Of a DNA stretch of 64,000 nucleotides, positions 39,801 to 61,974 are shown in pieces. Source of the stretch: Roridomyces roridus (lineage: Eukaryota; Basidiomycota; Agaricomycetes; Agaricales; Mycenaceae). How positions within the stretch are numbered: position 1 is the stretch's first letter; every line of letters begins with the position of its first letter. The DNA lies in the NCBI GenBank assembly GCA_029378245.1, contig JARKIF010000037.1:124001-188000 (forward strand). Direction: 5' to 3'. The notes below the pieces were generated by a model. It made no database searches and was not told where the DNA came from. It saw nothing but the letters and a program-made list of their open reading frames with translations. The position numbers and the translations under genes were made by a program.

Positions 39801-39883
39801 TTCCAGGGACGTATTTCGCGTCCTTGCAGGCAGTGGCTGGCTAGAAGGCTCTGGAAGGGAAGTTTATTGCAGAAATGTACTCA

Positions 39884-40693: not shown

Positions 40694-41152
40694 TGGAGGG
40701 CAGAATTGGCCAGTAGTGAAGCTCAGAAGGCCGTGAGTGGGGTTGGGAGGGGATGGCACAGATAAAAGCAGAGTTGGTGGCCCGATGGGGCGGTTGTGAG
40801 GAAGGGAGGATGATGAGGGTGGTGGTCTGGAGTAAGATATGACACTTGATCTAGCGGCGATTCCTGCCCAGGTGCATTCTCGACCACAAAGTCCTCAGTT
40901 AATTCCCAGAAAATTTAATTCTCTTCAGAATTCTATCAAGACATGGCTTGAGGCAGCACCAGTGGAAAGTGAGGTTTGTGAGGAGATGGAGAAAAAGAAT
41001 CCGTGGCGATCGGACCGTGGTAGGTGAGTAACGCGCGTGGTAGGTGAGTAACAAGTCTCGTATCAGTGCTCGTCAAATCTTCGTCAAGCCTTGACCAGAG
41101 GTGTAGATGCAGGAGAATGTATTGGAGAGGTTAAGAAAACATGTTGTGTAGT

Positions 41153-43096
41153 CTACTGAGTAGCGTAAAGCGATTCGAGCTCGTCTAAGGTCGTGAAAAA
41201 GGAGAGTCCATCCTCCCACCGAGTGCCTGCCGCCTTATCTCTCTCCGCCTTCTGCTCTGGCGACGCGCGCTGGAGAAACTCTTCGTCCGTCATATTACCA
41301 TTTGCCACCCAACGAAAGAGCGATCCCGAGGTGAACTGGGTGAAGGAGTGGCGCTTTTCGCCAGGCTGGATGGGGGTGTTGGAATGGGTGATAATGGAGG
41401 AAGGAATGAAGATGGTCGAGCCGGGAGGGAAACGTATGATGAGCCGTAGCTCCCAGAGTATGATGTGGCCGCCTAGATCGGGGTCATAGTCGCCGAGCGC
41501 TGTCACAGGGCACCAACCCGCCGCCAAGTTCCCAAAATCCCTGTGCGGACGAGTCACTGCACGCCCAAAGTTCCAGGTGCACGCTGCGTACACCCCACCC
41601 TCGAAATTCCACCTCATCTTCTTCCAGGCCAGAAGATCGTCCTTGCACTGTTGATAACGAGCGAGTAGTCGATGGGCGTATATGGACATTAATACTGCGA
41701 TGGTGTCAACAAAGTCTACGTCAAGGTAAGGGACGGTACTTACGCATTGTAAATCCCACAATTCGGCCAAACCAACGGTGGCTCATAAGCTCGTCAGTGA
41801 CCTGAGTGTTGGCGGGGTTGGTGTGAAGTTCGCCAGGCTCCTACAGGACCGTGATGAGCAGAAGGAAAGAGACAGCAGGGAAACACGTACCGTCTGACCA
41901 GTGCCAAAGGATGGCCCGCGCGTCAAAGCCGCATATTCCTCCTGCGCCCTGCGGTGTTGGTACTCCCGGGCAGAAAGGCGAATGCGCTCCTCGCGCAGCT
42001 CCATCTCGTGAGCAGCGCCATCCATAGCCACCTTCCACCCCTCGATATCCCGGGGTTGACCACCCAGGAGCGCGATAATTCGTCTTTTCGAGTCAACGAT
42101 GGGAATAGTAATCCTGGAACGAGGATGAGCGGAGGTGGCTGCGGAGATGAGAAGGAGGACTAACCAACCAAGCCAGGGAACGTATCGGAAGCCCCGTTTG
42201 CCCACCAACGCGTCAACCTGCTCTTGCGTGTACATGGCAGGCCCCATCCCCGTGTCACCGAGGGTGAGCTCGCTCAGCTCGTCCTCGTACTCCCATGCAC
42301 GAACGTCCTGACCTTTCCGCACTCCAATCCACCCAGGCTTGGAGTGAGGGAGGTCATCGGCGTCGACGTTGACATGTATGGCGGATGACGTGGCCTCGTT
42401 CACTCGTTTGAGATGGATGTGCTTGAGCTTCGGGTTGGTGGTGGACGCAGGGTTGAGGCGACGTTGGAAGTCGCGTTTGACCTTGGACTTGAGCTTGTGG
42501 TGGACTTTTGCTGACTGCAATGGCTTTTGGAGTCGATCACGGTAGTGGGGGGTGGAAGTGGATGCAGCTTGGCGAGCTTGAGCGCGCTTGAATGTGAATT
42601 TGGTCTTGCGATGGTCGGCAGCAGATACACCAGACGCGATGGGAGGTGAGACGGGGGTGGGGACGGGAATGGAGGCCTCGGGGTCAGCCACTGGCACAGC
42701 ATCAATATGTGGCCAGAAATGGAAAGATCAGCCACGCACCGGTCAAAGTCAGAGACAAAAGGGCAGGGACGATGATATCCTCCGGCTCGTCAAAGTTCCC
42801 GCTCGTCTGCTGCTCCTCAAGACACACCCTCAGCTGTTCCTCCGCGTCAAAGTAGACGGCAGGCTCAATGGCAAGACCCAGGGCGAGGTCAAACGGGGAG
42901 TACTCCTTGTTGGAGCGAAGACGACGCCTTGGCAATTGGAGGAAGCCTGTGGCTGAAGGAGTCAGCATCTGGAAGAAAAGCGGAGGGAGAAAGGGAAATG
43001 CAGCGCCAAGTTCCACAAGGGAGCTCTTTGCAGCCTGCGCCGGGTTCCAAGGTCGGATCCCCTTGCATGACAGAAGGAAATGTACTTACCATTCAT
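41153..43096 (-). CDS. TET/JBP-like Fe(II)/2-oxoglutarate dioxygenase, element A
   Basis: Exons are 43096-43090, 42952-42740, 42690-42165, 42113-41891, 41840-41744 and 41694-41153, giving 535 aa, the same length as the element B protein. The catalytic double-stranded beta-helix is in the last exon: HRD (metal-binding H and D) in VTRPHRDFGNL, then DYDPDLGGHIILWEL, FPPGSTIFIPSSIITHSN with the second metal-binding His, and RHSFTQF with the Arg expected to bind 2-oxoglutarate. This architecture is that of fungal TET/JBP proteins carried by KDZ transposons, which are thought to oxidise 5-methylcytosine. The middle part is basic (KLKSKVKRD, HLKRVNEA), fitting DNA binding. The first exon encodes only seven bases. 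No defect is seen. Confidence 0.85.
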
Positions 43097-45746
43097 GTGA
43101 ATGGGGCCCGAGTCCAGTCAGTGAGGGAGAGGGAAAGGAAGGGAGGACGTGAGGACAAAGAGACGGGATTTCCGTAAGTGACGAGATTTCCGTAAGTCTA
43201 TTGCTCCCGTGTCCTGTACGTGACTTTGTTGATCATGTTCCCGTGTCTGCTCCCGTGCCTGGATCTCGACTTGGCTATTTTCCTCCTCACTTCCTGTCCA
43301 TGTCCATCAGGCGCTTCAAGGGTCGATCGCGGACATGGCAAGTCCTGGGCTCTACCACCGGCGTCGACGACTGCGCCCCCGCCCCACCAGTCAAGAAACT
43401 CCGTTTGGGTCCCATGAAACTTGCCCAGTATCAAGACAATCGGGCCATACAGCGTAAGGAAACCTGGGATGGTCAGTGGATGCAACGAAACGACAAGCTT
43501 TGGGCTGACGCTGGATAGTCATGTCCACCACCAATCGTCAAAATCTTCTCGCCCTCCAAGAAATGGCCGCCGCCCCCGAATTCGATGCATCAAATGCACC
43601 AGATCTGCTGACGGTCGCAGGCGTGCTGGATGGGACACATGAAGCTCAAATCAGTCATGCTGGTGGGGACCATGGGGGTGAAACGTTGGAGGACATCATT
43701 GAGCTTACAGAACGGGCAAGGTGAGTTTCTTTCGCTGGAATAGCACACCAATCTAATAACTTGTGTCAGGACTCGATGCAAGGATACAAGAACCCGCCGT
43801 GACCGTACTCAGAAAAGGAACGATGCTTTTGCCGCGCAGATGCCCAGCATGCTCAAGGCGTACTCGGCTTTCCGTGCGCGCGGCAAGCCAGACGAAGGGG
43901 ACGAAGGCCAGCCAGAGCTTTACCAGGTCACGGTCATTGATCTTTTCAGTGCGTGCCTCGTTTCTTTCTTTTCATTTTCGATCTTACCAGAGGTCCAGCG
44001 GAGCAAAGTGAGACGCTATCTCTTCCCCTGGGTTGTGGGGGTTTTTCAGCCGCCCTTCTTAGACTCGGCCTTGTGCCGTCTGCGCCGTGGACGCCCACTT
44101 TCGTCTTTACCATGGCCACCCTCGACTTCTATCGTGTCTCCCATGCCCGGTGTCCTCAGTTTTCGATATACGCCTTTACTAAAACCCTGGCTGATTTACA
44201 CGGGGTGCGTGGGTTTTATTGCGCTCCCTCAGGCTGTTAGCTGACTTTTTTTTTACAGGTTCCTGTTCGTTCGACCATGCATCAACACTTCTCCATCGCC
44301 CTCGACCTCTACCTCGACCTACGTCGACGTACGGAACTTCAAGTATTGACACACCTTGGCCGCGAGGATCCCGCCTGGCGAATGAAGAATTGTTGTCCGG
44401 CGTGCAGCTACAGGCTCGAGGGAGAAGACGAGTTAATTTTCAGCATGCTGGTCACGATGGACGGGAATGACTCGTTGAAGCGGGTTCTACGACGCGGGCC
44501 CGGTGATGATGGCCCTGGGGAGACGAATGAGCGCTGGGATGATCGCGATGCAAGTGACGGGTATTACCTGCCGCGCGCGCAAGTCGATGAGTGGGCGAGG
44601 CGCCGTCTGGCCAATATTTTGCCTTCGGATGACAATGTGAGTTTTTCATTTGATGAGTATTGTTTTGAAGGTTAATGGCTGGGCAGGGAGCGGAAAATCC
44701 GTGCAAGGAGCGTTGGAAGAATATGCTGAACGACGTGACAGCAAAAATGTGGGGCATCTTCGACGAGACGGGTCTGTTTCTATGCCTGTGTCGACACGGG
44801 TTTGCTCTGGTTATGGTGGACATGCTGCGCAGCGGGGAGCTGTAAGTCTTTCTCCTCTTGAGCTTCAAATCTTACTGAATGACTTTGTCAGGTCTAAATA
44901 TCCTCTGGCTGTGGTCGAGCACCTCCTCAAGCATTTCGGGGTCGATATTGGGGTCGGCTACGATATCGGGTGCCACTTCTGCACCACTCTCGACAAGAGC
45001 GAGCTGGGACCCAAGGCGCGCGAGGCTCGACTGCGGTGCCTTGTCGGATCGTTCCACGGGCACGCCCACAATCGACTCTGTCAAGTCTGCTTCTTGGCGT
45101 TATACGTCAAGGGGCTTGGGATTGAGGATCTGGAGGGGTGTGAGCGCCGCTTCTCCAGAAGCAATGCACTGGCGGGTTGTTCTCGCCGTGCGAGTCGGTT
45201 CCATCGTCAGCAGGAGATCACCGGGTATTTCAAGCACATGGACGACTACGACGTGTACGCTTCCCTCGGTATGTCGACTTCTCTCTCTCGCTGCGACATG
45301 AACGCTGATCTCATTGCTTAGCGACGTTCCTCTGCTCCAATTATGAGCAGTCTTTGAAGATCTTGGACGACGAACCGATTGTTAGGCAGATGATGAGGGA
45401 CGAGGACGTTGTGGATGGAGAGGAGTTCGTCCAGGCGCTTGCGGACGAGACGGTATATTTGCAGGAGCTGTGGAAGAGCTCCAAGAAGGCGGAGGATACT
45501 CCCGAAACCCGCTACGTTGCTTGCCTGGTAGCAGAGAGCGCTGACTTGTGAGTCTTCAGCCCATCTCTTCTGCCTGTATCTGACACGGGTGTGCAGAGCC
45601 AAAGTCACGGCTTGCAGGGCAGCCGTTCGCCAATCGCGGTCGGACGATGCAGCTTTCACGCCCGGCAAGACCAAGGCAGACATGGCGCTTCGGCATGCGT
45701 TGGAGAAGAGGGAGCGGAGCGCGATGGCGCTGGCGGATATCGAGCA
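42545..45746 (+). repeat. Palindrome, left arm
   Basis: This is an inverted, nearly identical copy of 46,691-49,891; positions sum to 92,437, or 92,436 left of a one-base indel near 43,275. I counted about eight substitutions, mostly transitions, in 3.2 kb. The arm covers exons 1-3 (part) of TET and exons 1-9 (part) of the transposase. Confidence 0.93.
43097..43299. promoter_or_regulatory. Divergent TET/transposase promoter region, element A
   Basis: The ATG codons of TET (minus) and transposase (plus) are 203 bp apart, so one region must drive both. A GACGAGATTTCCGTAAGT-type 16-bp direct repeat (GATTTCCGTAAGT twice, 43,167-43,199) lies in the middle. No TATA box is evident. Confidence 0.4.
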
Positions 45747-47119
45747 GGAGCTTGGAATCACAACGCGCTGGACCCCGACGAGCCCAAGTTACATTGCCGC
45801 CGAGGAGGAGGCGCGCTCGCTGGAGTATCAGCGTGCCCTTGATCGACTGGAGCTCCTCGTCGTGGAGCGTCTGTTCGAGCTCACCAAGATGAATCAATCC
45901 GGCACCGGTGAGTTTCATTCTATTCCTTCTATTCCTCTTGCTGATTTCAATCCTAGGCTACAAGATGCGAAAACACATTGCAAAATCTCTACAGGCTCGC
46001 TCCAAGGCTGTCCGATCCGCGGTCGCAAAGTACAACGCCGCTGCCGCTGCTGTCACCCCACCTCGGGATCATGTCGACATCGAGCAGGTCCTCGAATATG
46101 CGTTCCTCGCCGATTTCGACCTACTCCGTCACAGCCATCACGAAGTCCACCGCCAATACTGGGCCCGCCCTGCATATCGCGCCGTTATGAACCGCTGGTT
46201 CCGCCTGGAGCGTGCACGAGAGGAGATCAAGCGACTAGATGTCGAAATCCGACGTTTCGTCACCTGGATGCGGGACGAGAGCGTGTTCCTCCATAAACGG
46301 GAGAGGGAGCTGCGGTGGACGGAGGGGAAGACGGAGCAGCAGGTGGAGGATGACCACGCCTTGGCCGTCCATCTTGCAGAGTACCGGGAGCGGAGGGGTA
46401 GGTTTGAGCAGTCGCACATGATGCGGCTGCACACGTTGAAACGAAGGTGGGGCACACGGTGTACTGCGTCCTTGACACCCGGCGTCCCGCTGCAGTCCGT
46501 TTCGCCCGATGAGGATGAGGAGGACCAGATGCTGGTGGACGCGGAGCGGGAGGTGGGGATGGCGGGAGGGGAGGAGCCCACGCGGCAAGCAGATGATGAT
46601 GAGGACCACTCGGAGGGCGAGGATGATGAAGCGCATGATGAGCAGGTTTCGGACTTGCTCTTCAAGATCGCCAGCCTTGGGATTGATGCGTGCTCGATAT
46701 CCGCCAGCGCCATCGCGCTCCGCTCCCTCTTCTCCAACGCATGCCGAAGCGCCATGTCTGCCTTGGTCTTGCCGGGCGTGAAAGCTGCATCGTCCGACCG
46801 CGATTGGCGAACGGCTGCCCTGCAAGCCGTGAATTTGGCTCTGCACACCCGTGTCAGATACAGGCAGAAGAGATGGGCTGAAGACTCACAAGTCAGCGCT
46901 CTCTGCTACCAGGCAAGCAACGTAGCGGGTTTCGGGAGTATCCTCCACCTTCTTGGAGCTCTTCCACAGCTCCTGCAAATATACCGTCTCGTCCGCAAGC
47001 GCCTGGACGAACTCCTCTCCATCCACAACGTCCTCGTCCCTCATCATCTGCCTAACAATCGGTTCGTCGTCCAAGATCTTCAAAGACTGCTCATAATTGG
47101 AGCAGAGGAACGTCGCTAA
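43300..47119 (+). CDS. KDZ transposase, element A, chimeric C-terminus
   Basis: Exons are 43300-43471, 43519-43720, 43770-43948, 43999-44204, 44259-44636, 44687-44841, 44892-45268, 45322-45547, 45597-45907 and 45957-47119, giving 1,122 aa. The KDZ core has a zinc-binding CCPAC, then MDGNDS, GYDIGC and EGCERRFSRSN, which supply the presumed D, D and E. A histidine/cysteine cluster HGHAHNRLCQVC lies between the last two. The C-terminal third is charged and helical. From about 46,690 the frame enters the inverted copy, so the last about 143 residues are antisense of exons 8-9 and foreign to the family. Only the last about ten native residues are lost, so activity may remain. Confidence 0.8.
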
Positions 47120-49137
47120 GCCATGAGATCAGCGTTCATGTCGCAGCGAGAGAGAGAAGTCGACATACCGAGGGAAGCGTACACGTCGTAGTCGTCCATG
47201 TGCTTGAAATACCCGGTGATCTCCTGCTGACGATGGAACCGACTCGCACGGCGAGAACAACCCGCCAGTGCATTGCTTCTGGAGAAGCGGCGCTCACACC
47301 CCTCCAGATCCTCAATCCCAAGCCCCTTGACGTATAACGCCAAGAAACAGACTTGACAGAGTCGATTGTGGGCGTGCCCGTGGAACGATCCGACAAGGCA
47401 CCGCAGTCGAGCCTCGCACGCCTTGGGTCCCAGCTCGCTCTTGTCGAGAGTGGTGCAGAAGTGGCACCCGATATCGTAGCCGACCCCAATATCGACCCCG
47501 AAATGCTTGAGGAGGTGCTCGACCACAGCCAGAGGATATTTAGACCTGACAAAGTCATTCAGTAAGATTTGAAGCTCAAGAGGAGAAAGACTTACAGCTC
47601 CCCGCTGCGCAGCATGTCCACCATAACCAGAGCAAACCCGTGTCGACACAGGCATAGAAACAGACCCGTCTCGTCGAAGATGCCCCACATTTTTGCTGTC
47701 ACGTCGTTCAGCATATTCTTCCAACGCTCCTTGCACGGATTTTCCGCTCCCTGCCCAGCCATTAACCTTCAAAACAATACTCATCAAATGAAAAACTCAC
47801 ATTGTCATCCGAAGGCAAAATATTGGCCAGACGGCGCCTCGCCCACTCATCGACTTGCGCGCGCGGCAGGTAATACCCGTCACTTGCATCGCGATCATCC
47901 CAGCGCTCATTCGTCTCCCCAGGGCCATCATCACCGGGCCCGCGTCGTAGAACCCGCTTCAACGAGTCATTCCCGTCCATCGTGACCAGCATGCTGAAAA
48001 TTAACTCGTCTTCTCCCTCGAGCCTGTAGCTGCACGCCGGACAACAATTCTTCATTCGCCAGGCGGGATCCTCGCGGCCAAGGTGTGTCAATACTTGAAG
48101 TTCCGTACGTCGACGTAGGTCGAGGTAGAGGTCGAGGGCGATGGAGAAGTGTTGATGCATGGTCGAACGAACAGGAACCTGTAAAAAAAAAGTCAGCTAA
48201 CAGCCTGAGGGAGCGCAATAAAACCCACGCACCCCGTGTAAATCAGCCAGGGTTTTAGTAAAGGCGTATATCGAAAACTGAGGACACCGGGCATGGGAGA
48301 CACGATAGAAGTCGAGGGTGGCCATGGTAAAGACGAAAGTGGGCGTCCACGGCGCAGACGGCACAAGGCCGAGTCTAAGAAGGGCGGCTGAAAAACCCCC
48401 ACAACCCAGGGGAAGAGATAGCGTCTCACTTTGCTCCGCTGGACCTCTGGTAAGATCGAAAATGAAAAGAAAGAAACGAGGCACGCACTGAAAAGATCAA
48501 TGACCGTGACCTGGTAAAGCTCTGGCTGGCCTTCGTCCCCTTCGTCTGGCTTGCCGCGCGCACGGAAAGCCGAGTACGCCTTGAGCATGCTGGGCATCTG
48601 CGCGGCAAAAGCATCGTTCCTTTTCTGAGTACGGTCACGGCGGGTTCTTGTATCCTTGCATCGAGTCCTGACACAAGTTATTAGATTGGTGTGCTATTCC
48701 AGCGAAAGAAACTCACCTTGCCCGTTCTGTAAGCTCAATGATGTCCTCCAACGTTTCACCCCCATGGTCCCCACCAGCATGACTGATTTGAGCTTCATGT
48801 GTCCCATCCAGCACGCCTGCGACCGTCAGCAGATCTGGTGCATTTGATGCATCGAATTCGGGGGCGGCGGCCATTTCTTGGAGGGCGAGAAGATTTTGAC
48901 GATTGGTGGTGGACATGACTATCCAGCGTCAGCCCAAAGCTTGTCGTTTCGTTGCATCCACTGACCATCCCAGGTTTCCTTACGCTGTATGGCCCGATTG
49001 TCTTGATACTGGGCAAGTTTCATGGGACCCAAACGGAGTTTCTTGACTGGTGGGGCGGGGGCGCAGTCGTCGACGCCGGTGGTAGAGCCCAGGACTTGCC
49101 ATGTCCGCGATCGACCCTTGAAGCGCCTGATGGACAT
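46691..49137 (-). pseudogene. Truncated KDZ transposase copy (right palindrome arm)
   Basis: It has the same exons 1-8 and part of exon 9 as the element A transposase, starting at ATG 49,137. All core motifs are present. After the LADIE motif at 46,691 the frame continues into antisense sequence of element A exon 10 and ends at 46,138. The C-terminal third is missing, so it is not expected to be active. Confidence 0.88.
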
Positions 49138-49339
49138 GGACAGGAAGTGAGGAGGAAATAGCCAAGTCGAGATCCAGGCACGGGAGCAGACACGGGAACA
49201 TGATCAACAAAGTCACGTACAGGACACGGGAGCAATAGACTTACGGAAATCTCGTCACTTACGGAAATCCCGTCTCTTTGTCCTCACGTCCTCCCTTCCT
49301 TTCCCTCTCCCTCACTGACTGGACTCGGGCCCCATTCAC

Positions 49340-49891
49340 ATGAATGGTAAGTACATTTCCTTCTGTCATGCAAGGGGATCCGACCTTGGAACCCGGCGCA
49401 GGCTGCAAAGAGCTCCCTTGTGGAACTTGGCGCTGCATTTCCCTTTCTCCCTCCGCTTTTCTTCCAGATGCTGACTCCTTCAGCCACAGGCTTCCTCCAA
49501 TTGCCAAGGCGTCGTCTTCGCTCCAACAAGGAGTACTCCCCGTTTGACCTCGCCCTGGGTCTTGCCATTGAGCCTGCCGTCTACTTTGACGCGGAGGAAC
49601 AGCTGAGGGTGTGTCTTGAGGAGCAGCAGACGAGCGGGAACTTTGACGAGCCGGAGGATATCATCGTCCCTGCCCTTTTGTCTCTGACTTTGACCGGTGC
49701 GTGGCTGACCTTTCCATTTCTGGCCACATATTGACGCTGTGCCAGTGGCTGACCCCGAGGCCTCCATTCCCGTCCCCACCCCCGTCCCACCTCCCATCGC
49801 GTCTGGTGTATCTGCTGCCGACCATCGCAAGACCAAATTCACATTCAAGCGCGCTCAAGCTCGCCAAGCTGCATCCACTTCCACCCCCCAC
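49340..49891 (+). pseudogene. Truncated TET/JBP copy (right palindrome arm)
   Basis: The seven-base exon 1 (49,340-49,346), exon 2 (49,484-49,696) and the start of exon 3 (from 49,746) match element A TET almost exactly. Exon 3 is cut at 49,891, where the terminal repeat of element B begins. The dioxygenase domain is absent, and the missing part is not found right of element B. Confidence 0.9.
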
Positions 49892-50125
49892 CACCTTTGG
49901 GACCTGTATATCCCTTCAAATTAGAAGGGACGTATGGGGGGGGTGTCCTTTCTAATTTGAAGGGATATAGCGAATCTTCCCTAGATGCAATAAAGGTTGC
50001 AATAAAGATTGCAATAAAGTTGCAGAATAGTATGTAGGACTTACCAAGTACAAGTAAGTAGACCTTCATTGCAATAAAGTGTCGCCGGGTGATCTGCCAT
50101 TGATGCAATCATGATTTTACCAAAA
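49892..50125. repeat. Left terminal inverted repeat of element B
   Basis: It contains a foldback: 49,907-49,931 pairs with 49,945-49,969 around a G-rich loop. Several TTGCAATAAAG units (about 49,987-50,090) follow, then an inner GATCTGCCAT/ATGATTTTACC part. The repeated AATAAAG units are candidate transposase-binding sites. Confidence 0.88.
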
Positions 50126-50141
50126 AGGGAACTAAGACAAT

Positions 50142-53100
50142 CTAATCTGCAATGCTCTCACCCCGCTCCTCGGCATCAATTCCAAGGCCGGCGAGCTTGA
50201 AGAGCATTTCAGAGACATGCTCATCATGCGCCTCATCACCCTCGGCGTCTGAATCATCCTCATCCGCTGATCCGTGTCCGTCTCCCTCCTGAGTGGACAA
50301 GTCTCCCTGCTCCTCTCCCGCCATCCCCGGCTCCCTCGGCAAGTCCACATCCATAGTCTCCGGCTCATCTCCGTCCACCGCAGGCCGAGACACAGGCATG
50401 AGTGGGACTCCCGGCGTCAAGGATGCAGTGCACCGCGGGCCCCATTTCCTCTTCAGGGCACGGAGGCGCATCATGTGCGACTGCTCGAACCTGCCTCGCC
50501 GCATACGATACTCCTCAAGATGTACGGCCAACTCATAATCCGCCTCCACCTGCTCCTCAGACTTGCCCTCAGTCTTCCGCAGTGCTGCCTCGCGTTTACG
50601 GAGAAAAACGCCTTCGTCCCGCATCCAAGTAACAAAACGACGGATTTCGATATCCAGTCGTTTTAACTCTTCACGTGCGCGCTCCAGTCGAAACCACTTG
50701 TTCATGAGCGAGCGATAGGCGGGGCGGGCCCAGTACTGTTGGTCGACGCCATGATGGCGGTGGCGGAGGAGGTCAAAGTCCGCCAGGAAGGCGTACTCGA
50801 GAACCTTCTCGATGTCGACGGGTTCACGGGGCGGGGTGACTGCAGCAGCGGCGGCATTGTATTTGGCCACCGCACTCCGCACGGCCTTGGAACGGGCTTG
50901 CAATGACTTGGCGATATGCTTTCTCATCTTGTAGCCTGTATCCGGTCAGCAGATGCAGATAAATCCAGCATCGTGGACGCACCTGTTCCCGACTGATTCA
51001 TTTTCGTCAACTCAAAAAGCCGCTCAACCACGAGGAGCTCAAGCCGATCCAGAGCTCGTTGATACTTCAGCAGGCGTGCCTCCTTCTGCGCGGCAATATA
51101 TCGTGGATGCTCGACAGTCCACCGGGTAGTAATATTGAGGCCCCGCTCAACCTCCGCCAATACCATGGCCATGCGCTCCCTCTTCTCCAGCGCATGCCTC
51201 AGGGCAATATCGGCCTTGCTCTTCCCGGGGGTGAATGCTGCCGTGTCACTCTGCGCTTGACGAACAGCAGCTCTGCACTGGGTCACTTTGGATCTATACC
51301 TCAAAGGTCAGATACAGGATTGAGATGTGCGGGGAAACACTCACGCATTGGCAATGTCATTGTCGAGGCAAGCCACGTAGCGCGTCTCGGGCGTCTCCAC
51401 CGTATTCTTGGAGCTCTTGTACAGCTCCTGCAGATACACTCTCTCGTCCGCAAGTGCCTGTACAAACTCGTTCCCATCCACAATATCCTCCTCCCACATC
51501 AGCCTCCGCACAGCTCCCTCGTCGTCCAGAATCTTGAGGGATTGCTCGTAGTTGGAGCACAAGAATGTAGCTATATGCGGTGTCAGTCCACAGATTAAAA
51601 CAAGAATGGCTGCACTCACCAAGAGAGGCGTAAACGTCGAAGTCGTCCGTGTGCTTGAAGTAGGCAGTGATTTCCTGCTGGCGGTGGAAACGACTTGCAC
51701 GGCGACAGCAGCCCGCCAGCGCGTTGCTGCGAGAGAACCTCCGCTCGCAGCCTTCCAAATCCTCAATGCCCAGCCCCTTGACATATAATGCCAAGAAGCA
51801 GACTTGGCAGAGGCGGTTGTGGGCATGCCCGTGGAACGCCCCAACAAGGCAGCGCAGTCGTGCCTCTCGCGCCTCGGGTCCCAGCTCACTCTTGTCGAGG
51901 GTGGTGCAAAAGTGGCACCCGATGTCGTAGCCGACGCCGAGATCGACACCGAAGTGCGTGAGGAGGTGCTCAACGACGGCAAGGGGATACTTGGAGCTAA
52001 AACACGTCAGGAAAGGAATCAGTCAAATAGAAAGCAGACGCACAGTTCCCCACTCCGCAACATGTCCACCAGCACCAATGCAAACCCGTGCCGACAGAGA
52101 CAAAGGAAGATCCCAGTCTCATCAAAGATACCCCACATTTTGGCCGTCACGTCATTGACCATATTCTTCCAATGTTCCTTGCACGGATTCTCCTCCCCCT
52201 AAGCCTGATGTCAGCATACATCCCCAGCAGTGAAAGGCATACACACGTTGTCATCCGTTGGTAGAACATCCGCCAGCCGTTTCCGTGCCCATTCATCCAC
52301 CTTCTCGCGAGGCAGATAATATCCATCACCTGCGTCTCGGTCGTCGTATCGCTCGTTGGAATCTCCCGGGCCATCGGGGTCAGGGCCACGCCGAAGCACT
52401 CTCTTCAGAGAGTCGTTGCCGTCCATGGTCACGAGCATGCTGAATATGAGCTCGTCCTCGCCCTGCAGCTTATATGTACATGCGGGGCAGCAATTCTTCA
52501 TGCGCCATGCAGGGCTGTCGCGACCGAGGGAGCGAAGGACTTGCGTCTCTGTACGGCGGCGGAGGTCGAGATAGAGGTCGAAGGCGATAGAAAAATGCTG
52601 ATGCATTGTGGATCGAGGAGGAACCTAATAAGCAGAGTCAGTGTCCATGCATCACAACACGGTGAGGAGGAACATACCCCATGTAGATCGGCCAGAGTCT
52701 TGGTGAACGCGTAGATGGAAAATTGAGGGCATCGTGCATGCGATACTCGGTAAAAGTCCAGAGTGGCCATTGTGAAAACGAATGAGGGCGTCCACGGTGC
52801 TGAGGGAACTAGCCCGAGTCTGAGCAGTGCCGCCGAAAAGCCTCCGCATCCCTTGGGGAGAACAAGTTTCTCACTATGCTCCGCTATGTACGTCAGAATT
52901 CACGAAGAAGAACTTTGCGAGCATTACTCACTGAACAAATCCACCACCAGAACATTGTAGTATTCTGGGTCACCATCCTCCTCCTCTGCAGGCCTCCCTC
53001 GTGCACGGAAACTCGAGTACGCATTGAGCATATCCGGCATTTGTGCAAGAAACGCGTCGTTACGCCTTTGAGTACGGTCGCGCCGGGTTCGTGTGTCTTT

Positions 53101-53571
53101 ACACCGAGTTCTGGTTCAAGGTAAGTTGAAGAAGCATGCATGTGGAATAGCAGTAGCACTTACCTAGCACGTTCAGTCATCTCAATAATGTCCTCCAGCG
53201 TATCAGCCATTTCCCCACCCGCATGGCTTATTTGAGCCTGCTCCCTCCCATCCAACACGCTGGCGACCGTGCTGACTCCAGGAAAGTTGGCTGCATCGAA
53301 GGTGTTGTCGGCTGCCAGGTTTTGCAGTGCCTGCAGATTCTGGCGGTTTGTCGTGGACATAACTGGCCGAATTCAGAGCAAAGACAAGGATGGAATCTGT
53401 GTACTCACCCTCCCAGTTTTCCTGTCGTGTTATAGCACGCGCATCTTGAAACTGCGCCATGGTGCGGGGTCCCATTCGCATCTTCTTGACGTGCGGGGCT
53501 GCACACGGGTCTTCAGTCAGAGGCGCCGAGATGAGCTGCCATTTGCGAGGACGTCTCTTGGCTCTTTGCAT
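50142..53571 (-). CDS. KDZ transposase, element B
   Basis: Exons are 53571-53409, 53362-53164, 53110-52932, 52883-52678, 52624-52247, 52198-52044, 51996-51620, 51570-51345, 51293-50983 and 50935-50142, giving 995 aa with all phases consistent. Eight of the ten exons have identical lengths to element A. A CxC zinc-type cluster CCPAC is near residues 294-298. The presumed catalytic acids are D317 (MDGNDS), D451 (GYDIGC) and E511 (GCERRFSRSN), with HGHAHNRLCQVC at about 482-493. The last 260 residues are charged and acidic at the end. It belongs to the Kyakuja-Dileera-Zisupton group, RNase H-fold DDE-type enzymes that cut and paste DNA. The stop lies about 250 bp inside the left terminus. No lesion is seen, so this is the best candidate for an active enzyme in the window. 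Confidence 0.88.
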
Positions 53572-53804
53572 GAGGTGGCGGCACGAGAGGGAGTGAGATG
53601 CAAAGAGGAGTGATGTACAAGGAGGAGTGAGCTTGCAGACCGAGATTGGTGGAATCGAAACGCGGAAGCAAAAACGCGGGTGCGTGATCAAACAAGTCAC
53701 GTCGAGACACGGCAGCAGTTGACACACGGCAACCACGGCAGCGTGAGTGATGTCAATCTCCCTCTTTGTTTCTCTCTCGCCCACAACTTGCTGGCTGGGT
53801 TTCT
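53572..53804. promoter_or_regulatory. Divergent TET/transposase promoter region, element B
   Basis: There are 233 bp between the two divergent ATG codons, the same arrangement as in element A although the sequence has largely diverged. A GGCAGCAGTTGACACACGGCAACCACGGCAGC-like stretch near 53,710-53,740 has short direct repeats. I see no TATA box. Confidence 0.4.
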
Positions 53805-55753
53805 ATGGATGGTAAGTTGAATTCCACCTCCCATGCAAAGGAATCCGACCCTGGAACCCGGCGCAGGCCGCAAAGAGCTCCCTTGTGGAACTTGGGGCTG
53901 GCATTTCCGCTTTCGTTGCTTGTATATAATAGACGCTAACTCCCTCAGTTACAGGTTCCTTCCTTCCGAGGCGTCGCCTCAGATCCAATAAGGAGTACTC
54001 TCCATTCGACCTTGCCCTTGGGCTCGCCATCCAGCCTCCCGTCCACTTTGATGCTGAGGAACAGCTGAAGCGCTGCCTCGAGGAGCAGCAGCTGAGTGGA
54101 AGCTTTGACGAACCGGAGGAAGTTATTGTGCCTGCTTTTGCGTCCATGACTCTGCAAGGTGCGTCACTGAAGCTTTGGACTTTCACTCTCCATTGACACC
54201 CTCGCAGTAATGGACATTCCCCTCGCCCACCCAGAGGCCTCCGCACCCATCGCACCCAGTTCTACTCCCCCGAGCTCATGCGCCGCAGAACATCGCAAGG
54301 TCAAATACAAAGCAAAGCGCATTCAAGTCCGTCAACCCACCCCTCAATCTGTACCCCACTACCGGGAGCGCCTACAAAACGCCTCCCTTTCTGCCAAAGC
54401 ACGCACCAAGCTCAAGTCCAAGGTCAAACGTGACCAGGAGCGCCGCGTCACACCAGCCTCCAGCGACAATCCCAAGCTCAAATGGATTCACCTCAAACGA
54501 GCCCAGGAGGCTGCCACGTCATCGGCTATTCACGTCGATGTGGACGCGAATGACCTTCCGCACTCCAAGCCGGGTTGGATTGGGCTACGCAATGCTCAGT
54601 ATGATGTGTGCGAGTCTGAGGACGAGTTCAGTCCACCAGGCATTGGAGAGACGGGCATGGGACCTTGCATTTACACCCAAGAGCAAGTCGACGCATTGGT
54701 GGGCAAACACGGATTCAGGTACATCCCATGGCTTGGAATGTACGTCTCCCTTGTCGCCTGGATGCTCAACCATGTACTAATGGCTCGCAGATTGTCCATA
54801 CCCATCGTCGACTCGAAACGGCGCGTCATTGCGCTTTTGGGCGGCCAGCCACGGGATAAAGAACGGTGGAAGGTTGTCATGGATGGCGCTGCCAATGAGA
54901 TGGAGCAGCGCGAGGAGCACATCCACTTGTCTGATGAGGAGTATCAACACCGGAGGGTGCAGGAGGAGTTTGCGGCCTTGACACGCGGGCCTTCCTTTGG
55001 CAGCGGTCAAACGGTCAGTCTTTTCCCTTGATGCCTGTTACCCACCGCTCATTTTGTTCCTGTAGGAGCCAGGCGAGCTCCACACCAACCCCGCCAACAC
55101 CGTTGTCACGAACGAGCTCATCACGAACGCCTTTTTCCTCCACATTGTGCGCTTCACCATGCGTGTGTATCGTTTGGCCATGCATATGCTACCGTCCTCC
55201 TGATGTACATACAGTGCTAATGTCTATCTACGCCCCGCATCTGTTTGCACGGTACCAGAAGTGCAAAGATGATCTCCTCGACTGGAGGAAAATGCGATGG
55301 AACTTTGAGTCCAGCGTGTTCGCGGCATGCACTTGGAACTTCGGGCGCGCGGTCACTCGTCCACACCGTGACTTTGGCAACTTGGCAGCGGGATGGTGTC
55401 CGGTCACTGCGCTCGGCGACTATGACCCAGACCTCGGGGGGCACATCATCCTCTGGGAACTACGGCTCATCATTCGTTTCCCTCCCGGCTCGACAATCCT
55501 CATCCCATCTGCCATCGTCACCCACTCAAATACACCCATCCGGTCTCACGAAAAACGCCACTCCTTCACACAATTCACGTCAGGATCCCTCTTCCGTTGG
55601 GTGGCGAATGGGAACATGACGGATGATGAGTTCCTTCGTCATGCGTCGCCAGAGCAGAAGGCGCAGAGAGACAAGGCGGCGGGGACTCGGTGGGAGGACG
55701 GACTGTCTTATTTTAGTACCTTGGACGAGCTCGAGTCCCTATATTCCCGGTAG
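53805..55753 (+). CDS. TET/JBP-like Fe(II)/2-oxoglutarate dioxygenase, element B
   Basis: Exons are 53805-53811, 53949-54158, 54208-54739, 54791-55013, 55066-55162 and 55215-55753, giving 535 aa. The catalytic residues are H407 and D409 (RPHRDFGNL), H460 (IVTHSN) and R471 (EKRHSFTQF). The core is very similar to element A (the stretch GNLAAGWCPVTALGDYDPDL is identical), while the N-terminal half has diverged, suggesting selection on the catalytic part. Residues about 95-160 are Lys/Arg-rich. Related fungal TET/JBP proteins are known to travel with KDZ transposons, and members of the family oxidise 5-methylcytosine to 5-hydroxymethylcytosine. Activity here is inferred. The very short first exon and all splice sites are shared with element A. 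Confidence 0.88.
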
Positions 55754-56178
55754 ATACTTGCTACTTGCTATCTCAACCTATACAATGCATTTTATGGCCA
55801 TGAGAATTGCTGTAAGAACTCGAAGAGGAAAGGATTGCTCACCTGTTATGCGGATCGCCAACTTACCACGGTGCGAGTGTCTCGGATTTCTTTTCTCCCT
55901 CTCACCACAGTGGGGCTTTGCCACTTCTGGCTGTACTAGCATATGTTATAGACACCTCAGGCCATTATTGTATTTTTCCGTAATTAACGAGCATGGTTCT
56001 GGGATTATCTTGAGACGGGCTGAATTTGAGCCAAATCATTCACACATCTTGCCTCTTGACCATCATCTTGCACCGACCGTTTCCTTCAACTCACCTTGGT
56101 GGCTCTCTCATCGGCGACACTCCTCAGTCCTGACGCATGCAACTACTCCTCACCTTGCTACGGCTTTGAAGACTCCCA

Positions 56179-56895
56179 ATGCCGTCCAAGGATGCAGCAA
56201 AACGGAAGGCGGCACAGCACAAGTACAGGCAGACGTGCGCTCACTTGCCTTTCTTCTCTGACCCTCTTACTAACTGAATGCAAGCCATCGAGACGAGCTG
56301 CGTGCCAAGGGCCGGGTACACGCTTCAAAACAACGCGCCAAGACGAAAAGTAATCCGGCTTTGGAGGCCATGTCGAATTCTCAAGCAAATCACCATGCGG
56401 CAGAGTACAGGGCTGGGCATGGGGCGTTGCTGGCACGGAAGGAGATGATGAGGCGCTGCCGGTGTGTTTTACACCAGAGAGTCGATTCCAATTGTGCTAA
56501 TTCTACTGTACAGGCAATCCATCGAGAAAAACGGATACGACGTCTGGGTAGCTCGCTGGACAAAGACGCACCCAAATGAGCACCCACCATACGATCCCCC
56601 AAGTGCCCCCGACAATGTCTGTCATCCACATCGCTCCCCGCCACCTGTCTGCGATGACACTCAGCAGAGGTTGTCGGGAGTCAAATTGGAGCGATACTTG
56701 CGGATTAGAGAGGCGCAGCGATTGAGCGAGTTGCAACGCGAGGAGTGGGCTAGGGGAATGCGAGAGTTGGAGGCACTCAATGATGCACCAGACGAGGAGG
56801 GAGAGCAGCAGGCAGCGGAGGCGGAGGTGGCCGACCAGAAGGCGTATCACCGCGGTGTTAGCAATTTTGATTCAAAGGCGGCGCCGCCTTGGTAA
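56179..56895 (+). CDS. Element B cargo 1: small charged protein
   Basis: Exons are 56179-56234, 56285-56461 and 56514-56895, giving 204 aa. The first exon is Lys/Arg-rich (AAKRKAAQHK) like a nuclear signal. Conserved with element A are THRDEL, RAKTKSNPA, KEMMRRCR and QSIEKNGYDVW. The C-terminal part has one LERYLRIREAQRL helix where A has two, and ends differently. Cargo 2 starts 60 bp downstream on the same strand. The function is unknown. Conservation of exon lengths and splice phases across diverged copies argues that it is a real gene. Confidence 0.62.
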
Positions 56896-56954
56896 TTGAC
56901 CCCGATTTCCTGCAATAGATCATTTTTGAAGAAACTTCCAGTGAGAATGTGGCA

Positions 56955-58240
56955 ATGGAAATGAAAAACGTCCCAATGCCATCAGGTACGTACCGTTTCT
57001 GGAATGGTGGTGCGCCGCATGTACTCATATAACCCGAGCAGGCACCTTTGTCTGCTACGTTCGCCTTCTCATTCCCCCCACCATGGCTCTCATAGGCAAC
57101 GAAGCGATGGAGATTGTTCTCAGCTTGCGCAAACCCTCCAAACAAATATGTCCCATGCTCTGGTTCCCGTCTTCGGGGTATGACCCCCTCCGAGACAATC
57201 TATACGTTGTCGGAGTCGGTCGCCAAACAGCCGTGTACACAAGCCCGTACGTTGTCCATTTTCTCTCTCCTTTAATTTGTACTTATTCATATTTCAGAGA
57301 CGAGGCAAACAAGCAGACGCTGCACTACCCGTGCTCTCAACAGCGTGTTGCCAAGGCGTGGGATGGCACCAAGGGCGCCAGCGCGCACTGGATCGACCAG
57401 TGCCTCAAATATCACGTCGGCCATTGTCCACCGCCCGCAAAGCCCGACGGCTTTGACAGTCCAACTCGCATCCCCGTCCCGATTGACCCCATACCGCGTG
57501 GTCACGACGACAACTACGACATTGTCCCCTCATCTCCGTCGTCGGGTGTTCCCTCCCTCATATCCTGCCCTCCTTCCCCGGATGGCCCACTCCCCCACAC
57601 TGGCCCTCATGCCTCCGACATCACCCAACTCACCAACTATTCAATCTCCCCGTGCGACGCTGGGCCCGAATATGTCTACGACGTCGAGGACCTTGAGGAG
57701 CTAAGCTCGGACTTGGCCTCTCTCTCCTCGCCCTCCTCTTCCCAATTCTCCTCCCTCTCCTCGCCCTCGTCCTCCCAGTTCACAGAGCTTGACTCGTCTC
57801 CCCCTCCATCCCTCTCCCAATTCATCCCCGTCTCGACGTCGAGTGCATCAGCTGCTCAGGAGACCCAAGAAGCTCAACGTGAATACTGGGCGAGGCGACA
57901 GAACCTCGCGACCTGGGCTCGCGAGCAGCAGGCGGGCAATGGAGCGTACTGCCCTATCCCGTCGGTCATCCCACCCGGGTACGAGCGCCTTCTGCCGCTC
58001 ATTGGAGATGGGGACCCCAGCGAGGAGGAGCTGGCGACTCTTCGCGCGAGCCTTGTCCTGGCGCGTATCCAGCCTGCTGCCGACGCTCCCATTCTTTGGG
58101 CTGCAGTGGGTGTCCACGGCCGTCTCTTTGTATCGCGGCCTGCTGCGGTCGCCGCAGCCCACCGCCGGGGGAATCGTGGGGCGACCATCGTCTCAGGTCA
58201 GAACTATGATGCACTCCTGGATTTGACCTTTGAGCATTGA
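56955..58240 (+). CDS. Element B cargo 2: possible viroplasmin-like protein
   Basis: Exons are 56955-56985, 57042-57246 and 57298-58240, giving 392 aa. After a short N-terminus, residues about 60-120 (LYVVGVGRQTAVYTSP followed by QQRVAKAWDGT) resemble the RNase H1 N-terminal/viroplasmin domain that binds RNA-DNA hybrids. This resemblance is by eye and weak. A Ser/Pro-rich linker follows, with a tandem SLSSPSSSQFS repeat near 57,720-57,790. The C-terminal 75 residues, shared with element A, could be a second copy of the same fold (ILWAAVGVHGRLFVSR). No catalytic RNase H domain is present. The start could also be the second ATG two codons later. Confidence 0.55.
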
Positions 58241-58573
58241 GTAGTCGTGGTGGCTGGCAGGGTTTCTTGATTTTTCTTGTTGTTTACATGACGCACGCAT
58301 GGAGTTGATGTCGAACGATGTACACTAGTCAGTTCTCGAGAATAGTCGCCAAAATGTACATAGTAGCAATCCCAATGTCGAATGAGATTTCTCATCGCGT
58401 TGTCCCAATTTGGAAAAGGGAGGTGACGCCTCTCTCGATTTGGAAAAGGGAGATGACCACTTGATTTGGAAACAGACCAAACAACCCAAACAACCACCAT
58501 CTCTCTCTTTCTCTGACTCGCTTTGTCTCAATTCCGGTCCTCCTCTCCATTACTCGGATGCGTGCAAATCGCG

Positions 58574-61500
58574 ATGTTGACGGCCACCTTGCCTGCCAGT
58601 AATCACTCATGCCAGGACCATTCTGCAGCGGAAGGCGCCACATTTACGTGCACACGTCACACGTACAATCCTCCCTCCGCGCAGCAAGTGGGACGTACTA
58701 CCTACACCACAGGATCTCAGTCCTTTCCCTCTGCATTGGATTCAAACTCATGGCTGGTAAGTAGCACCTTGTCTTCTCTCCGGAGCCCACTGACCAGAAA
58801 ATAGTGGCTCAGCTTATTCGGACTCTCATTTTGGCTTTGGGGGCGTCGCGAGGTGCGTTTTGCAATTAAATTGCGGATGGTGTGTACTAACAAAGCCTAG
58901 TGGACATTCCTGTTGCTGGCTCTTACGTCTGACGCGGTGGCCACGGGCACGTCTTGTTGTTATACACGACACGTTCTGGATTGTTTGTGGGGATTCGCTC
59001 GTTGGGTTTTCCTTTTCCCTTTTGCTTTCATTCTCTTGGTGAGTGCGGTCACTCTGATTTGTGTGTAAGACGCTCATGATTTGTCGACAGGCTCTAGCAT
59101 TCCTGCAGCCTCAATATCTACCAAAAATGTCGGAGGGTACTGTAGTTGTGCCTGTCGTGCCAACTCCAGCCGTCTTGCAGACCCCTACTCCTCCTCTCGT
59201 GACGACCACCACTCCCAATCCACTTGATTTGGGGACGCAGCCGCCTACTCCTCCTCTCGTGACGACCACCACTCCCAATCCACTCGATTTGGGGACGCAG
59301 CCGCAGACTCCTCCTCTCGTGACGACCACCACTCCTAACGTACCAAATGGAGAAGAGCTCGACTTGGGCGACACTCCCCCCGAGCTGCCTGGCAATACCC
59401 ATGCCCGTCGTAATCCCGACAGACCTGTCATCCCTCCCCGTGCACGCTACCGGCCCAAGGAGAAGAACTCGGCAGCACTGACGCGTCTGCGGCGCCAGAT
59501 TCGCGCCAACAAGTCCCAGGCCGTGGCTGACGACATCCGCGAGATACGCCAGGCTGTGGAAGATTTGGTCCCGGTGGTAGCGACCCGTCATAACATGAGC
59601 ACGAAGGAGATTCGCCGTCGCGTCTACAACGGGTCTGGTCTTACAGCAAAGCGCAACAAAGTCAGCATCTACAATGCTCAAGTCTGCTGCGTAATGGAGT
59701 CCTTGAACGAGGGTGCGTCTCCTTTTGTTTCTTGTCATCTCTTTGTACTTACGCAAGCTCAGGGTGGGAGTTCGGGTCTCGGTACACGATGGAACAAGCA
59801 AAGGCGATGATGAAGCAAGACCCTGCCCTCAAGGAGGACATCGACCCCGAGCATCTCAAGCGCATGATTGCTAGGCTTGAGGCAGAGGGTGTCCTCAAAC
59901 GGACAGGCGTGCGGGGAGATAATAAGGCGGCGGCTGTAGATGCTCAGCGTACGCTGGATGTATTGGGCGAGTTGGTGTGTTTCTTCCCTCCTTCATCTCT
60001 CTTCGTCGTTACTGAATGACCTCGGCAGATAAGGGGCCTTTATCATCGGACTGGCATTCTTGGCTTCGCGTTCTTCACTCGCGGCAACTTCAACGACATC
60101 CTCGAGCCTGTCGCCTTGGAATCAGGGGACGCTCTGAAGTTCTGTTCCGAGATCCTGTGCCGCAAACCCGAGCTGATCAATACGATGCTGGATTTGTGGG
60201 CGATTCAGCGGAGCTCAGGTTAGTTTTTCCTTTCTTTTCTGTTGTTCCTGCTCGATGCTTATTCGTACCCAGGAGCAATTACTGCCCCGACGACTGAGAA
60301 GATGCGTTCGTTTGGCAGTGCTATGATCAAGTCCGGTCTCAGTAAGCCGTCCCTTTCCCCATGCTGCCCTGATACTTATGTCTTTCTTTCAAGTCCAGAT
60401 TACCGGCAAAGCGAATGTCAATATGAGCTTTGAAGGATACATCAAGTCCATCGTCCACGCCAAGCAGGTTGCCTTGGTTGGCTGGCCCGTTGGTGTTCCT
60501 TGGAAACGCCTTGGCAAGCTGACTGGTGCGGGGGATGTACGTGCCGTGTACAAGGCGCTGAAGGATGGGACTTGCAAGTGGAGAAAGTTGGCAACGGATG
60601 CTGAGGTGGATGCTGAGGAGCGCCGGTTTAACAAGCTCATCAAGAATGGCCTCGCGGAGCCAGCGAACGAGCGCAAGATCCGGGACGATGTCGGGCGTAA
60701 GCACCAGACGCAGGGGACGAAGCGCAAACGCAGAGCTCGGTGTACACAGAGCTATGCTGAAAGCGGTGACGACCAGTCTGACCCCGAGCCCGAGCCCGCG
60801 TCTGACCCCGAGACCGAGCCCGAGCCCAGCGACGACGAGGATCGCCCATTTGCAAACTACGACGGAGGGTACTCGGACGATGACAGGCACGCTCAGCGCA
60901 AGAAAAGCAAGTCGAGCAAGCCCGCTGCCAAATCTGCGTCCAAGTCTGCCTCTGCCTCCAAGTCTACCACCAAGTCCGCCTCTGCCTCCAAGTCCACCTC
61001 TGCCTCCAAGTCCACCAAGGCCAAGCCCGCCGCTACCAAGGCCAAGCCCGCCGCTACCAAGGCCAAGCCCGCCGCTACCAAGGCCAAGCCTGCCGCTACC
61101 AAGGCCAAGCCCGCCACTACCAAGGCCAAGGCCAAGCCCGCCAAGCCCGCCTTCATCCCGACGCCGACTCCGCCTCGAGTGGTGATGAAGGGCGGCAAGT
61201 TCGTGCCTAACAGAGCTGCAATAGCAGCGCATGAGAGAGACATGATAGCAGCGCGGGGGAGGCATGAGCGCGAGAATCGGGACAAAGGTGGCGGCAGTGA
61301 TGGCGAGGACGGTGACGACGATGAGGATGCACAGCCGAGAAAGAGGCGCCGTGGCACCAACGACGGCGAGGAGGAGGAGGAGGAGGAGGAGGAGGAGCCA
61401 GTCGCAAAGAAGTCGAAGAAGAGCAGCGCGGTGAGAGAAAAGCGCGGCCGTGACGATGATGAAGAGGAGCAGGAGCCGGTTGCGAAGAAGAAGAAGAAGG

Positions 61501-61664
61501 CGAGCGGGGTGGGGGAAAAGCACGGCAAGGTCCTCGAGCCCGAGGTGGTGGTCTCGCGCCCCGTCCCGAGGCCTGCACACAAAGGCGCACCCAATACGGG
61601 CACCCGCCGGCACGGCCCTCCTGGTCTTCGCAATATAATCCCACCCGCTAGCGATAATGAGTAG
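58574..61664 (+). CDS. Element B cargo 3: membrane-anchored conserved protein
   Basis: Exons are 58574-58756, 58805-58852, 58901-59038, 59091-59712, 59763-59974, 60029-60218, 60273-60341 and 60394-61664, giving 910 aa. Exons 2-3 encode hydrophobic segments (LSLFGLSFWLW; ARWVFLFPFAFILL) joined in frame to the large conserved part, and element A shows the same joining. A 20-residue repeat (PTPPLVTTTTPNPLDLGTQ, about 2.7 copies) follows. Then come ELPGNTHARRNP, RRRVYNG, KRTGVRGDN, TGILGFAFFTRGNF and ALVGWPVGVPWKRL. The C-terminus alternates basic (five copies of a 7-residue KAKPAAT unit) and acidic runs. I recall similar proteins as hypothetical in many agaricomycetes. A shorter product starting at ATG 59,127 (775 aa without the membrane part) is possible. 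Confidence 0.68.
59186..59338 (+). repeat. 60-bp tandem repeat in cargo 3
   Basis: There are about 2.7 near-perfect copies of a 60-bp unit starting ACTCCTCCTCTCGTGACGAC, encoding a Pro/Thr repeat. Element A has different repeats at this place (MREPDP units and a duplicated 63-bp unit at about 37,808-37,930), so the region evolves by repeat turnover. Confidence 0.9.
61018..61125 (+). repeat. 21-bp tandem repeat in cargo 3
   Basis: There are five copies of AAGGCCAAGCCCGCC plus GCTACC, encoding KAKPAAT units in the basic C-terminal domain. Confidence 0.92.
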
Positions 61665-61749
61665 TAGTGCAGATGAGTTTCTTGGGCTTGACGATGTATG
61701 TGTCTTGTATATAGTCTTGAATTGACTTGAGTTTTTCTTGGACTTCCGT

Positions 61750-61974
61750 TTTGGGTAAGATCATGATGGCAGATCACCCGGCCGCACTTTATTGCAACAA
61801 AGGTCTACCTACTTGTACTTGGTAAGTCCTACATACTATTCTGCAACTTTATTGCAACCTTTATTGCAACCTTTATTGCATCTAGGGAAGATTCGCTATA
61901 TCCCTTCAAATTAGAAAGGACACCCCCCCCATACGTCCCTTCTAATTTGAAGGGATATACAGGTCCCAAAGGTG
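61750..61974. repeat. Right terminal inverted repeat of element B
   Basis: It is the inverted partner of 49,892-50,125, with the same foldback (about 61,897-61,959) and three to four CTTTATTGCAA units at 61,788-61,880. The two ends differ by a few bases and small indels. Confidence 0.88.

Follow-up and report, generated by a model that had tools for sequence, protein, structure and literature searches.

A KDZ Transposon of Roridomyces roridus Carrying a TET/JBP-like Dioxygenase Gene and Three Conserved Cargo Genes

Introduction

TET enzymes carried by transposons are believed to protect their elements from silencing by methylation, and the accessible text of Kojima 2025 (PMC12730594) states that the function of TET in transposons has not been experimentally validated. 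The question is raised anew by a 64,000-nucleotide stretch (the window, C301:124001-188000) of the 90.8-Mb, 501-contig genome of Roridomyces roridus. This window contains a KDZ DNA transposon of 12,083 bp at positions 49892-61974 with five open, spliced genes: a KDZ transposase, a TET/JBP-like dioxygenase (TET), and three further genes termed cargo 1, cargo 2, and cargo 3. Do these genes belong together, and what might they do for the element? The five-gene KDZ-TET element is real, as the genome-wide recurrence of its left end and of its gene order exceeds chance. The element type is already known; of interest are the gene set, the apparent exchange of genes among copies, and marks on young copies that resemble the effects of methylation. 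This one genome contains near-identical copies with TET, a form of a related family that has lost TET, and allelic flank of the host, and the shielding claim is therefore directly testable. Coordinates with a contig prefix (e.g., C301:) are contig positions, and those lacking one are window positions.

Structure and Gene Content of the Element

The element begins at base 49892 and ends at base 61974 with the termini 5'-CACCTTTGGGACC...GGTCCCAAAGGTG-3', which are of the CA..TG type (CACC..GGTG). The ends are inverted repeats of 240 bp (left) and 231 bp (right) that share 92.5% identity, and the left end has 61 matches genome-wide, some of which are a single repeat read in both senses. All five gene models are open, and every intron is GT-AG with a length of 45-54 bp save one of 97 bp and one of 143 bp (Table 1). 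The original prediction, made from this DNA alone, had described an intact KDZ element with matching ends, five open and consistently spliced genes, a TET gene, and three conserved cargo genes; these findings support that description.

Table 1. Features of the KDZ-TET element and of the adjoining part of the window.
Feature	Position	Strand	Details and basis
Left terminal inverted repeat	49892..50131	+	240 bp
Imperfect palindrome inside left repeat	49907-49969		self-inverse matches of query 16-78
KDZ transposase gene	50142..53571	-	10 exons, 980 aa; PF18758 match and gene model
KDZ exons	53409-53571, 53164-53311, 52932-53110, 52678-52883, 52247-52624, 52044-52198, 51620-51996, 51345-51570, 50983-51299, 50142-50935	-
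Region between divergent KDZ and TET start codons	53572..53804	.	233 bp; coordinates; putative promoter
TET/JBP-like dioxygenase gene	53805..55753	+	6 exons, 533 aa; gene model, weak Tet_JBP match
TET exons	53805-53811, 53955-54158, 54208-54739, 54791-55013, 55066-55162, 55215-55753	+
Cargo 1	56179..56895	+	3 exons, 204 aa, basic N-terminal region; gene model
Cargo 2	57083..58240	+	2 exons, 368 aa; gene model; region near aa 41-69 resembling the RNase H1 N-terminal (hybrid-binding) domain
Cargo 3	59127..61664	+	5 exons, 775 aa; gene model; conserved core ~aa 108-455, charged repetitive tail
Right terminal inverted repeat	61744..61974	-
W2, second element of same design	35280..46690	-	KDZ, TET, cargo 1, cargo 2, cargo 3 in same order
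Inverted duplication of W2 42541-45746	46691..49895	+	3.2 kb; reaches left terminus of main element

The transposase is matched by the full KDZ transposase domain (PF18758, profile 1-217 of 217) at amino acids (aa) 293-527 with an E value of 9.5e-76 and 254.7 bits (cut-off 26.6), while the cysteine cluster CxC1 is below its cut-off of 26.9 (13.5 bits, E 0.08). The acidic triad D300, D434, and E494 lies in the motifs TMDGN, GYDIG, and GCER, which we take to be the catalytic motifs, in line with the original prediction. The HxD...H iron triad of the dioxygenase is likewise present (H405, D407, H458), and its H-x-D and distal H are invariant across seven aligned copies. The catalytic residues of both enzymes are thus those predicted, with numbering 17 (KDZ) and 2 (TET) below that given before because of other splice or start choices. 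Profile searches of the five proteins give a divided result. The KDZ match is strong, Tet_JBP stays below its cut-off, cargo 1 and cargo 3 have no Pfam match above cut-off, and cargo 2 passes only as an isolated segment. That segment scores 22.2 bits against PF01693 (Cauli_VI; cut-off 21) and 18.2 bits, under the cut-off, in the full protein; four of five cargo 2 family members match PF01693 at E up to 1. When a profile built from the segment is searched against structures, the top hits are the RNase H1 N-terminal structures of yeast (E 0.11) and human (E 0.2), which no more than hints at such a domain, and a second similar repeat is visible by eye at the C-terminus. Cargo 1 has 17 genome matches and cargo 3 has 42; proteins P0001-P0008 and P0011-P0015, the last from Mycena vulgaris, are relatives of cargo 3.

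Cargo 1 and cargo 2 could instead be a single gene, giving an element of four genes, since the public gene models P0009 and P0010 join the two and the donor used in these fused models overlaps the cargo 1 stop codon (by eye). We consider this doubtful. The cargo 2 start codon is retained in all six readable copies, coding sequence upstream of it is shared only between the window copy and C412 (by eye), and cargo 1 and cargo 2 differ in their divergence from C412. The five-gene reading is favored by gene-model comparison because of the start codon kept in the six copies.

Insertion as a Unit

Perfect 8-bp target duplications flank the copies on C485, C179, and C491 as well as four elements that share only the repeats with them (two on C1, one each on C456 and C13). 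In total, 7 of the 10 two-ended loci with examined flanks have 8-bp duplications; the window copy, a short element on C124, and the copy on C90 lack them, and the latter two have the same 12 bases beyond their right ends and may be a single locus. Joining the flanks of the C491 insertion gives an uninterrupted match at C224:61927-62228 (95%). The joined C179 flanks match five other places that are uninterrupted or nearly so (88-98%), and those of C485 have a weaker match at C223 (80% over 227 of 300 bases). The element therefore moves as a unit; as judged from these flanks, everything between the inverted repeats, genes included, inserts as one piece and leaves an 8-bp target duplication. Across 12,060 aligned bases, the window copy differs from that on C485 by 48 substitutions (99.6% identity).

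At four loci (L024, L025, L026, and L027), elements of 4.2-5.9 kb match the repeats over their outer 130-150 bp alone and have 8-bp target duplications; L024 and L025, both on C1, differ at 38% of aligned sites. These are likely non-autonomous passengers of the same transposase.

Recurrence of the Gene Module

After merging of fragments, the genome contains 75 TET places (87 matches), 33 KDZ places (50 matches, omitting 15 matches at 29-38% identity and two fragments), 17 cargo 1 places, 21 cargo 2 places (28 matches), and 42 cargo 3 places. At 16 of the 17 cargo 1 places, the gene is found 1.06-1.35 kb from TET and on its strand; the remaining one (C368) stands in a row with cargo 2 and cargo 3. 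Cargo 2 is within 15 kb of TET at 18 of 21 places, the other three being in a row with cargo 3, and cargo 3 is within 15 or 20 kb of TET or KDZ at 27 of 42 places. It had been proposed that cargo genes found mostly outside KDZ elements would reveal an accidental module; these distributions do not show such a pattern.

Recurrence of the predicted order within this genome is clear among close relatives. At 13 of the 20 TET places with at least 84% identity, cargo 1, cargo 2, and cargo 3 follow TET in order. A fourteenth close place, C124, has cargo 1 by local search. Of the other six, the five that were read (all but C79) are a locus that stops at a contig end (C436), two that look interrupted (C235:166745 and C13), and two that look deleted or cut (C469 and C179:437756). 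The module counts are not independent because several places are probably allelic to one another. C235:160259 and C436, for instance, agree in the 20 flanking bases displayed, and their KDZ, TET, and cargo 1 blocks are 100% identical.

The picture is mixed for more distant TET places. Only 7 of the 55 below 84% identity have their own cargo 3 by direct search, and deletion forms lacking TET, cargo 1, and cargo 2 occur in the related family of W2, a second element in the window. The warning that copies lacking cargo would speak against the module is thus partly borne out. Diverged cargos are missed by direct search, however. At C460 there is a cargo 2 with both repeats and, by eye, a cargo 1-like stretch, and a search with this cargo 2 finds diverged cargo 2 beside TET at C460, C201, and C480, of which the C480 gene is interrupted by a stop codon. 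At another locus (L038, C323:271000-276900), a distant TET (54% identity) has near it a basic stretch resembling cargo 1 as well as a relative of cargo 3, with no clear cargo 2.

Selection and Segment Exchange

Ratios of non-synonymous to synonymous divergence (dN/dS) were obtained by the Nei-Gojobori method for the window copy against diverged families wherever dS was finite. They are 0.06-0.13 for KDZ, 0.03-0.26 for TET, 0.15-0.19 for cargo 1, 0.13-0.32 for cargo 2 (0.54 against C460, over 55 codons), and 0.19-0.32 for cargo 3, with the provisos that the underlying tblastn blocks may include misread intron ends and that several cargo 1 and cargo 2 comparisons have near-saturated dS. Against C412, where dS is usable, the values are 0.175 for cargo 1 and 0.131 for cargo 2. 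Judged by these ratios, purifying selection has acted on all five genes between diverged families.

The order in which the genes diverge depends on the copy compared. In the comparison with C491, dS rises from 0.65 (KDZ) and 0.70 (cargo 3) through 1.10 (TET) to 2.72 (cargo 1) and 3.06 (cargo 2), while in that with C412 it rises from 0.42 (cargo 2) through 0.66 (cargo 1) and 1.52 (TET) to 1.69 (cargo 3). The ranks flip, and a gene-specific mutation rate cannot yield both. On the strength of synonymous divergence, internal segments must have been exchanged between copies, and the five genes have no single shared history.

Deletion forms offer a view of which genes are removable. A short element at C124:1108258-1115874 matches W2 and keeps KDZ and cargo 3; TET is cut off after about aa 142, and cargo 1 and cargo 2 are gone. 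The C90 copy has identical breakpoints, and the spacing between KDZ and cargo 3 on C151 (4356 vs 4386 bases) is nearly that of the short form. A different deletion on C334 cuts cargo 3 too. Because deletion forms keep KDZ and cargo 3, these two genes are probably the core of the element, with TET, cargo 1, and cargo 2 removable.

Such forms, which lack most of TET together with cargo 1 and cargo 2, also invite the view that the cargo genes are mere passengers, retained for no other reason than that no deletion has yet taken them out. The 48 of 55 diverged TET places with no detectable cargo 3 would fit this view, as would the near-neutral changes that separate TET and cargo 3 of the window copy from those of C485. 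It is nevertheless quite improbable in light of the low dN/dS of all five genes between diverged families and the closeness of cargo 1 and cargo 2 to TET at nearly all of their places (16/17 and 18/21).

CpG Transitions as a Probable Trace of Methylation

CpG sites account for 30 of 38 transitions between the window and C485 copies, 33 of 45 between C491 and C401, and 11 of 21 between W2 and the short element. Pooled, 74 of 104 transitions in these three young pairs are at CpG, compared with 7 of 40 in allelic host flank (C491/C224; Fisher p 5e-9), a control that consists of one region only. CpG makes up 24-29% of G/C sites in the compared sequences. In a neighboring, more diverged repeat, 120 of 312 transitions are at CpG. 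The host genome has seven C5-methyltransferase domain matches (DNA_methylase, PF00145), on C153, C268, C480, C46, C113, C455, and C491; those on C113, C455, and C491 have three stop codons each in the matched stretch, possibly read-through introns. The transition pattern suggests that host CpG methylation probably marks young copies, and the simplest reading is that TET has not fully shielded them from the resulting mutations, i.e., that its protection is incomplete. Self-protection of the element from cytosine methylation, as first proposed from the shared KDZ/TET promoter, is a plausible hypothesis.

Alternatively, TET may write oxidized cytosine as a silencing or dosage mark, or alter the mutation outcome at methylated CpG, rather than demethylate the element to its own benefit. 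The CpG transition excess in young TET-bearing copies could be read this way, and oxidized cytosine in Laccaria and Coprinopsis is enriched on transposable elements, where the available text discusses it as a mechanism of regulation or suppression (PMC8889193). We regard this explanation as unlikely, given that TET is under purifying selection within a selfish element and that CpG observed/expected is still 0.89.

Proposed Mechanism

The reading that we prefer, with a probability of roughly 0.6, is that the element is a cut-and-paste KDZ transposon in which the transposase and cargo 3 would act on DNA and TET would act in trans against methylation with the help of cargo 2 and cargo 1, segments being exchanged between copies. 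The transposase would act on the long inverted repeats, presumably aided on DNA by cargo 3, a basic protein that is kept with the transposase in the shortened form. The TET-like enzyme would oxidize host-placed methylcytosine on the element, keeping the divergent transposase/TET promoter usable. Action in trans would allow TET-less derivatives to persist. Cargo 2 may use its RNase H1-like domain to bind RNA-DNA hybrids or double-stranded RNA, working with TET against silencing, and cargo 1 may be a basic nuclear partner. The conservation of a partner gene with such a domain points to the possible involvement, in addition to methylation, of a route by way of RNA or RNA-DNA hybrids. More speculatively, TET, cargo 1, and cargo 2 could form an anti-silencing cassette in which a hybrid-binding protein and a methylcytosine dioxygenase work jointly, the cassette recombining between co-resident KDZ elements and the genome thereby maintaining a common stock of interchangeable anti-silencing parts from which TET-less derivatives benefit too; this extension is tentative.

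Several observations weigh against the proposed mechanism, beyond the block-based dN/dS ratios and the single-region allelic control noted above. The Tet_JBP match to the dioxygenase is weak (E 0.0014-0.0025, 17.5-18.3 bits, curated cut-off 34.9), a structure model of the dioxygenase exon gave no confident fold (predicted local distance difference test score, pLDDT, of 35), and that exon matched no solved structure by sequence. Between the window and C485 copies, TET has 10 non-synonymous and 1 synonymous codon changes, and dN/dS in close pairs is in places near or above 1 (1.01 for C235/C124 KDZ, 1.06 for window/C485 cargo 3). The CpG decay in young TET-bearing copies speaks against complete protection, and the CpG excess of the W2/short pair alone is weak (binomial p 0.013). 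Damage is also evident in individual copies: KDZ on C485 has a 1-bp insertion (possibly a sequencing error), cargo 2 on C491 has a stop codon, and the C179 copy has lost 2,317 bp over the starts of KDZ and TET with cargo 1, cargo 2, and cargo 3 still open.

Comparison with Known Elements

KDZ-TET elements with additional proteins, including one with a divergent HMG domain, were reportedly described by Iyer et al. in 2014. That HMG protein could presumably be cargo 1 or cargo 3; HMG profile and fold tests on cargo 3 did not decide the matter.

The linkage of KDZ and TET in basidiomycetes, which the original prediction took as known, is documented by the complete TET-bearing Kyakuja and Zisupton transposons of Agaricomycetes in the accessible text of Kojima 2025 (PMC12730594). 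Like these, the R. roridus element combines a KDZ transposase and TET/JBP in one DNA transposon with CA..TG ends and an HxD dioxygenase. In contrast to the Laccaria Kyakuja of that text, which has 7-bp target duplications and no terminal inverted repeats, the R. roridus element has 240/231-bp repeats and related copies with duplications of 8 bp, the three loci that depart from this having none. Of these three terminal features of Kyakuja, only the CA..TG ends are found here, while the 8-bp duplications (in related copies rather than the window copy) and inverted repeats are those of Zisupton or KDZ1-like elements. The set of cargo 1, cargo 2, and cargo 3 is not described in the accessible text of Kojima 2025, and it was not found in print in search listings of the open-licence literature.

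In its terminal features the element resembles KDZ1 of Cryptococcus neoformans (PMC12810828), a KDZ element of ~11 kb with 241-bp terminal inverted repeats and 8-bp duplications that has been shown to move. KDZ1 is described with KDZ and CxC1 domains, and in the searched text of that paper TET appears only in a cited title. Rust IS3EU and PHISTA are likewise DNA transposons with TET and a third gene (PMC12730594), but their transposases are unrelated, and the third gene is an alpha-kinase (IS3EU) or a protein without a Myb/SANT domain (PHISTA). A PF01693 (viroplasmin/RNase H1 N-terminal) gene is also carried by another mushroom transposon, the Pleurotus Helitron helpo1.3 with captured capE; that element differs in being a Helitron, of which one longer copy holds the captured gene, and TET is not mentioned in the available part of the source (PMC4289320).

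Apparent Rearrangement of the Window Locus

The window copy lacks a target-site duplication (left flank ...CCCCCCAC, right flank GAATATAC...). To its left lies W2, whose KDZ half is ~71% identical to the element, and of whose cargo 2 only the C-terminal half is detected, the N-terminal half apparently being absent. W2 has no KDZ-side terminus in the window, and a piece with the missing end is present at C301:197351-197825. Between W2 and the element is the inverted duplication of part of W2; its arm at 46691-49158 is 100% complementary over 2468 nt to the arm at 43279-45746 within W2, and a 944-nt spacer separates the two. This perfect duplication is either a fold-back rearrangement or an assembly error, and rearrangement of the locus would explain the missing target duplication.

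The locus may be in part an assembly product, in which misjoined near-identical elements gave rise to both the missing duplication and the perfect inverted one. The complete identity of the arms, the lack of a target duplication, and the abutment of unrelated flanks exactly at the element ends are consistent with this possibility, which we hold to be a lesser but real one. True target duplications flank the further copies of the element on C485, on C491, and on C179, the last of these having a deletion; the unit is therefore independent of the window locus.

Other repeats surround the element. A 187-bp direct repeat (99%), at 46504-46690 and C301:197351-197537, brackets the 26.6 kb between the two W2 parts. 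The right flank from 61975 is another repeat, whose identity to its counterpart on C12 is 98% over 1.5 kb (C12:20247-21775) and ~93% over 9.5 kb, and an inverted copy of its start is located at C301:197169-197279.

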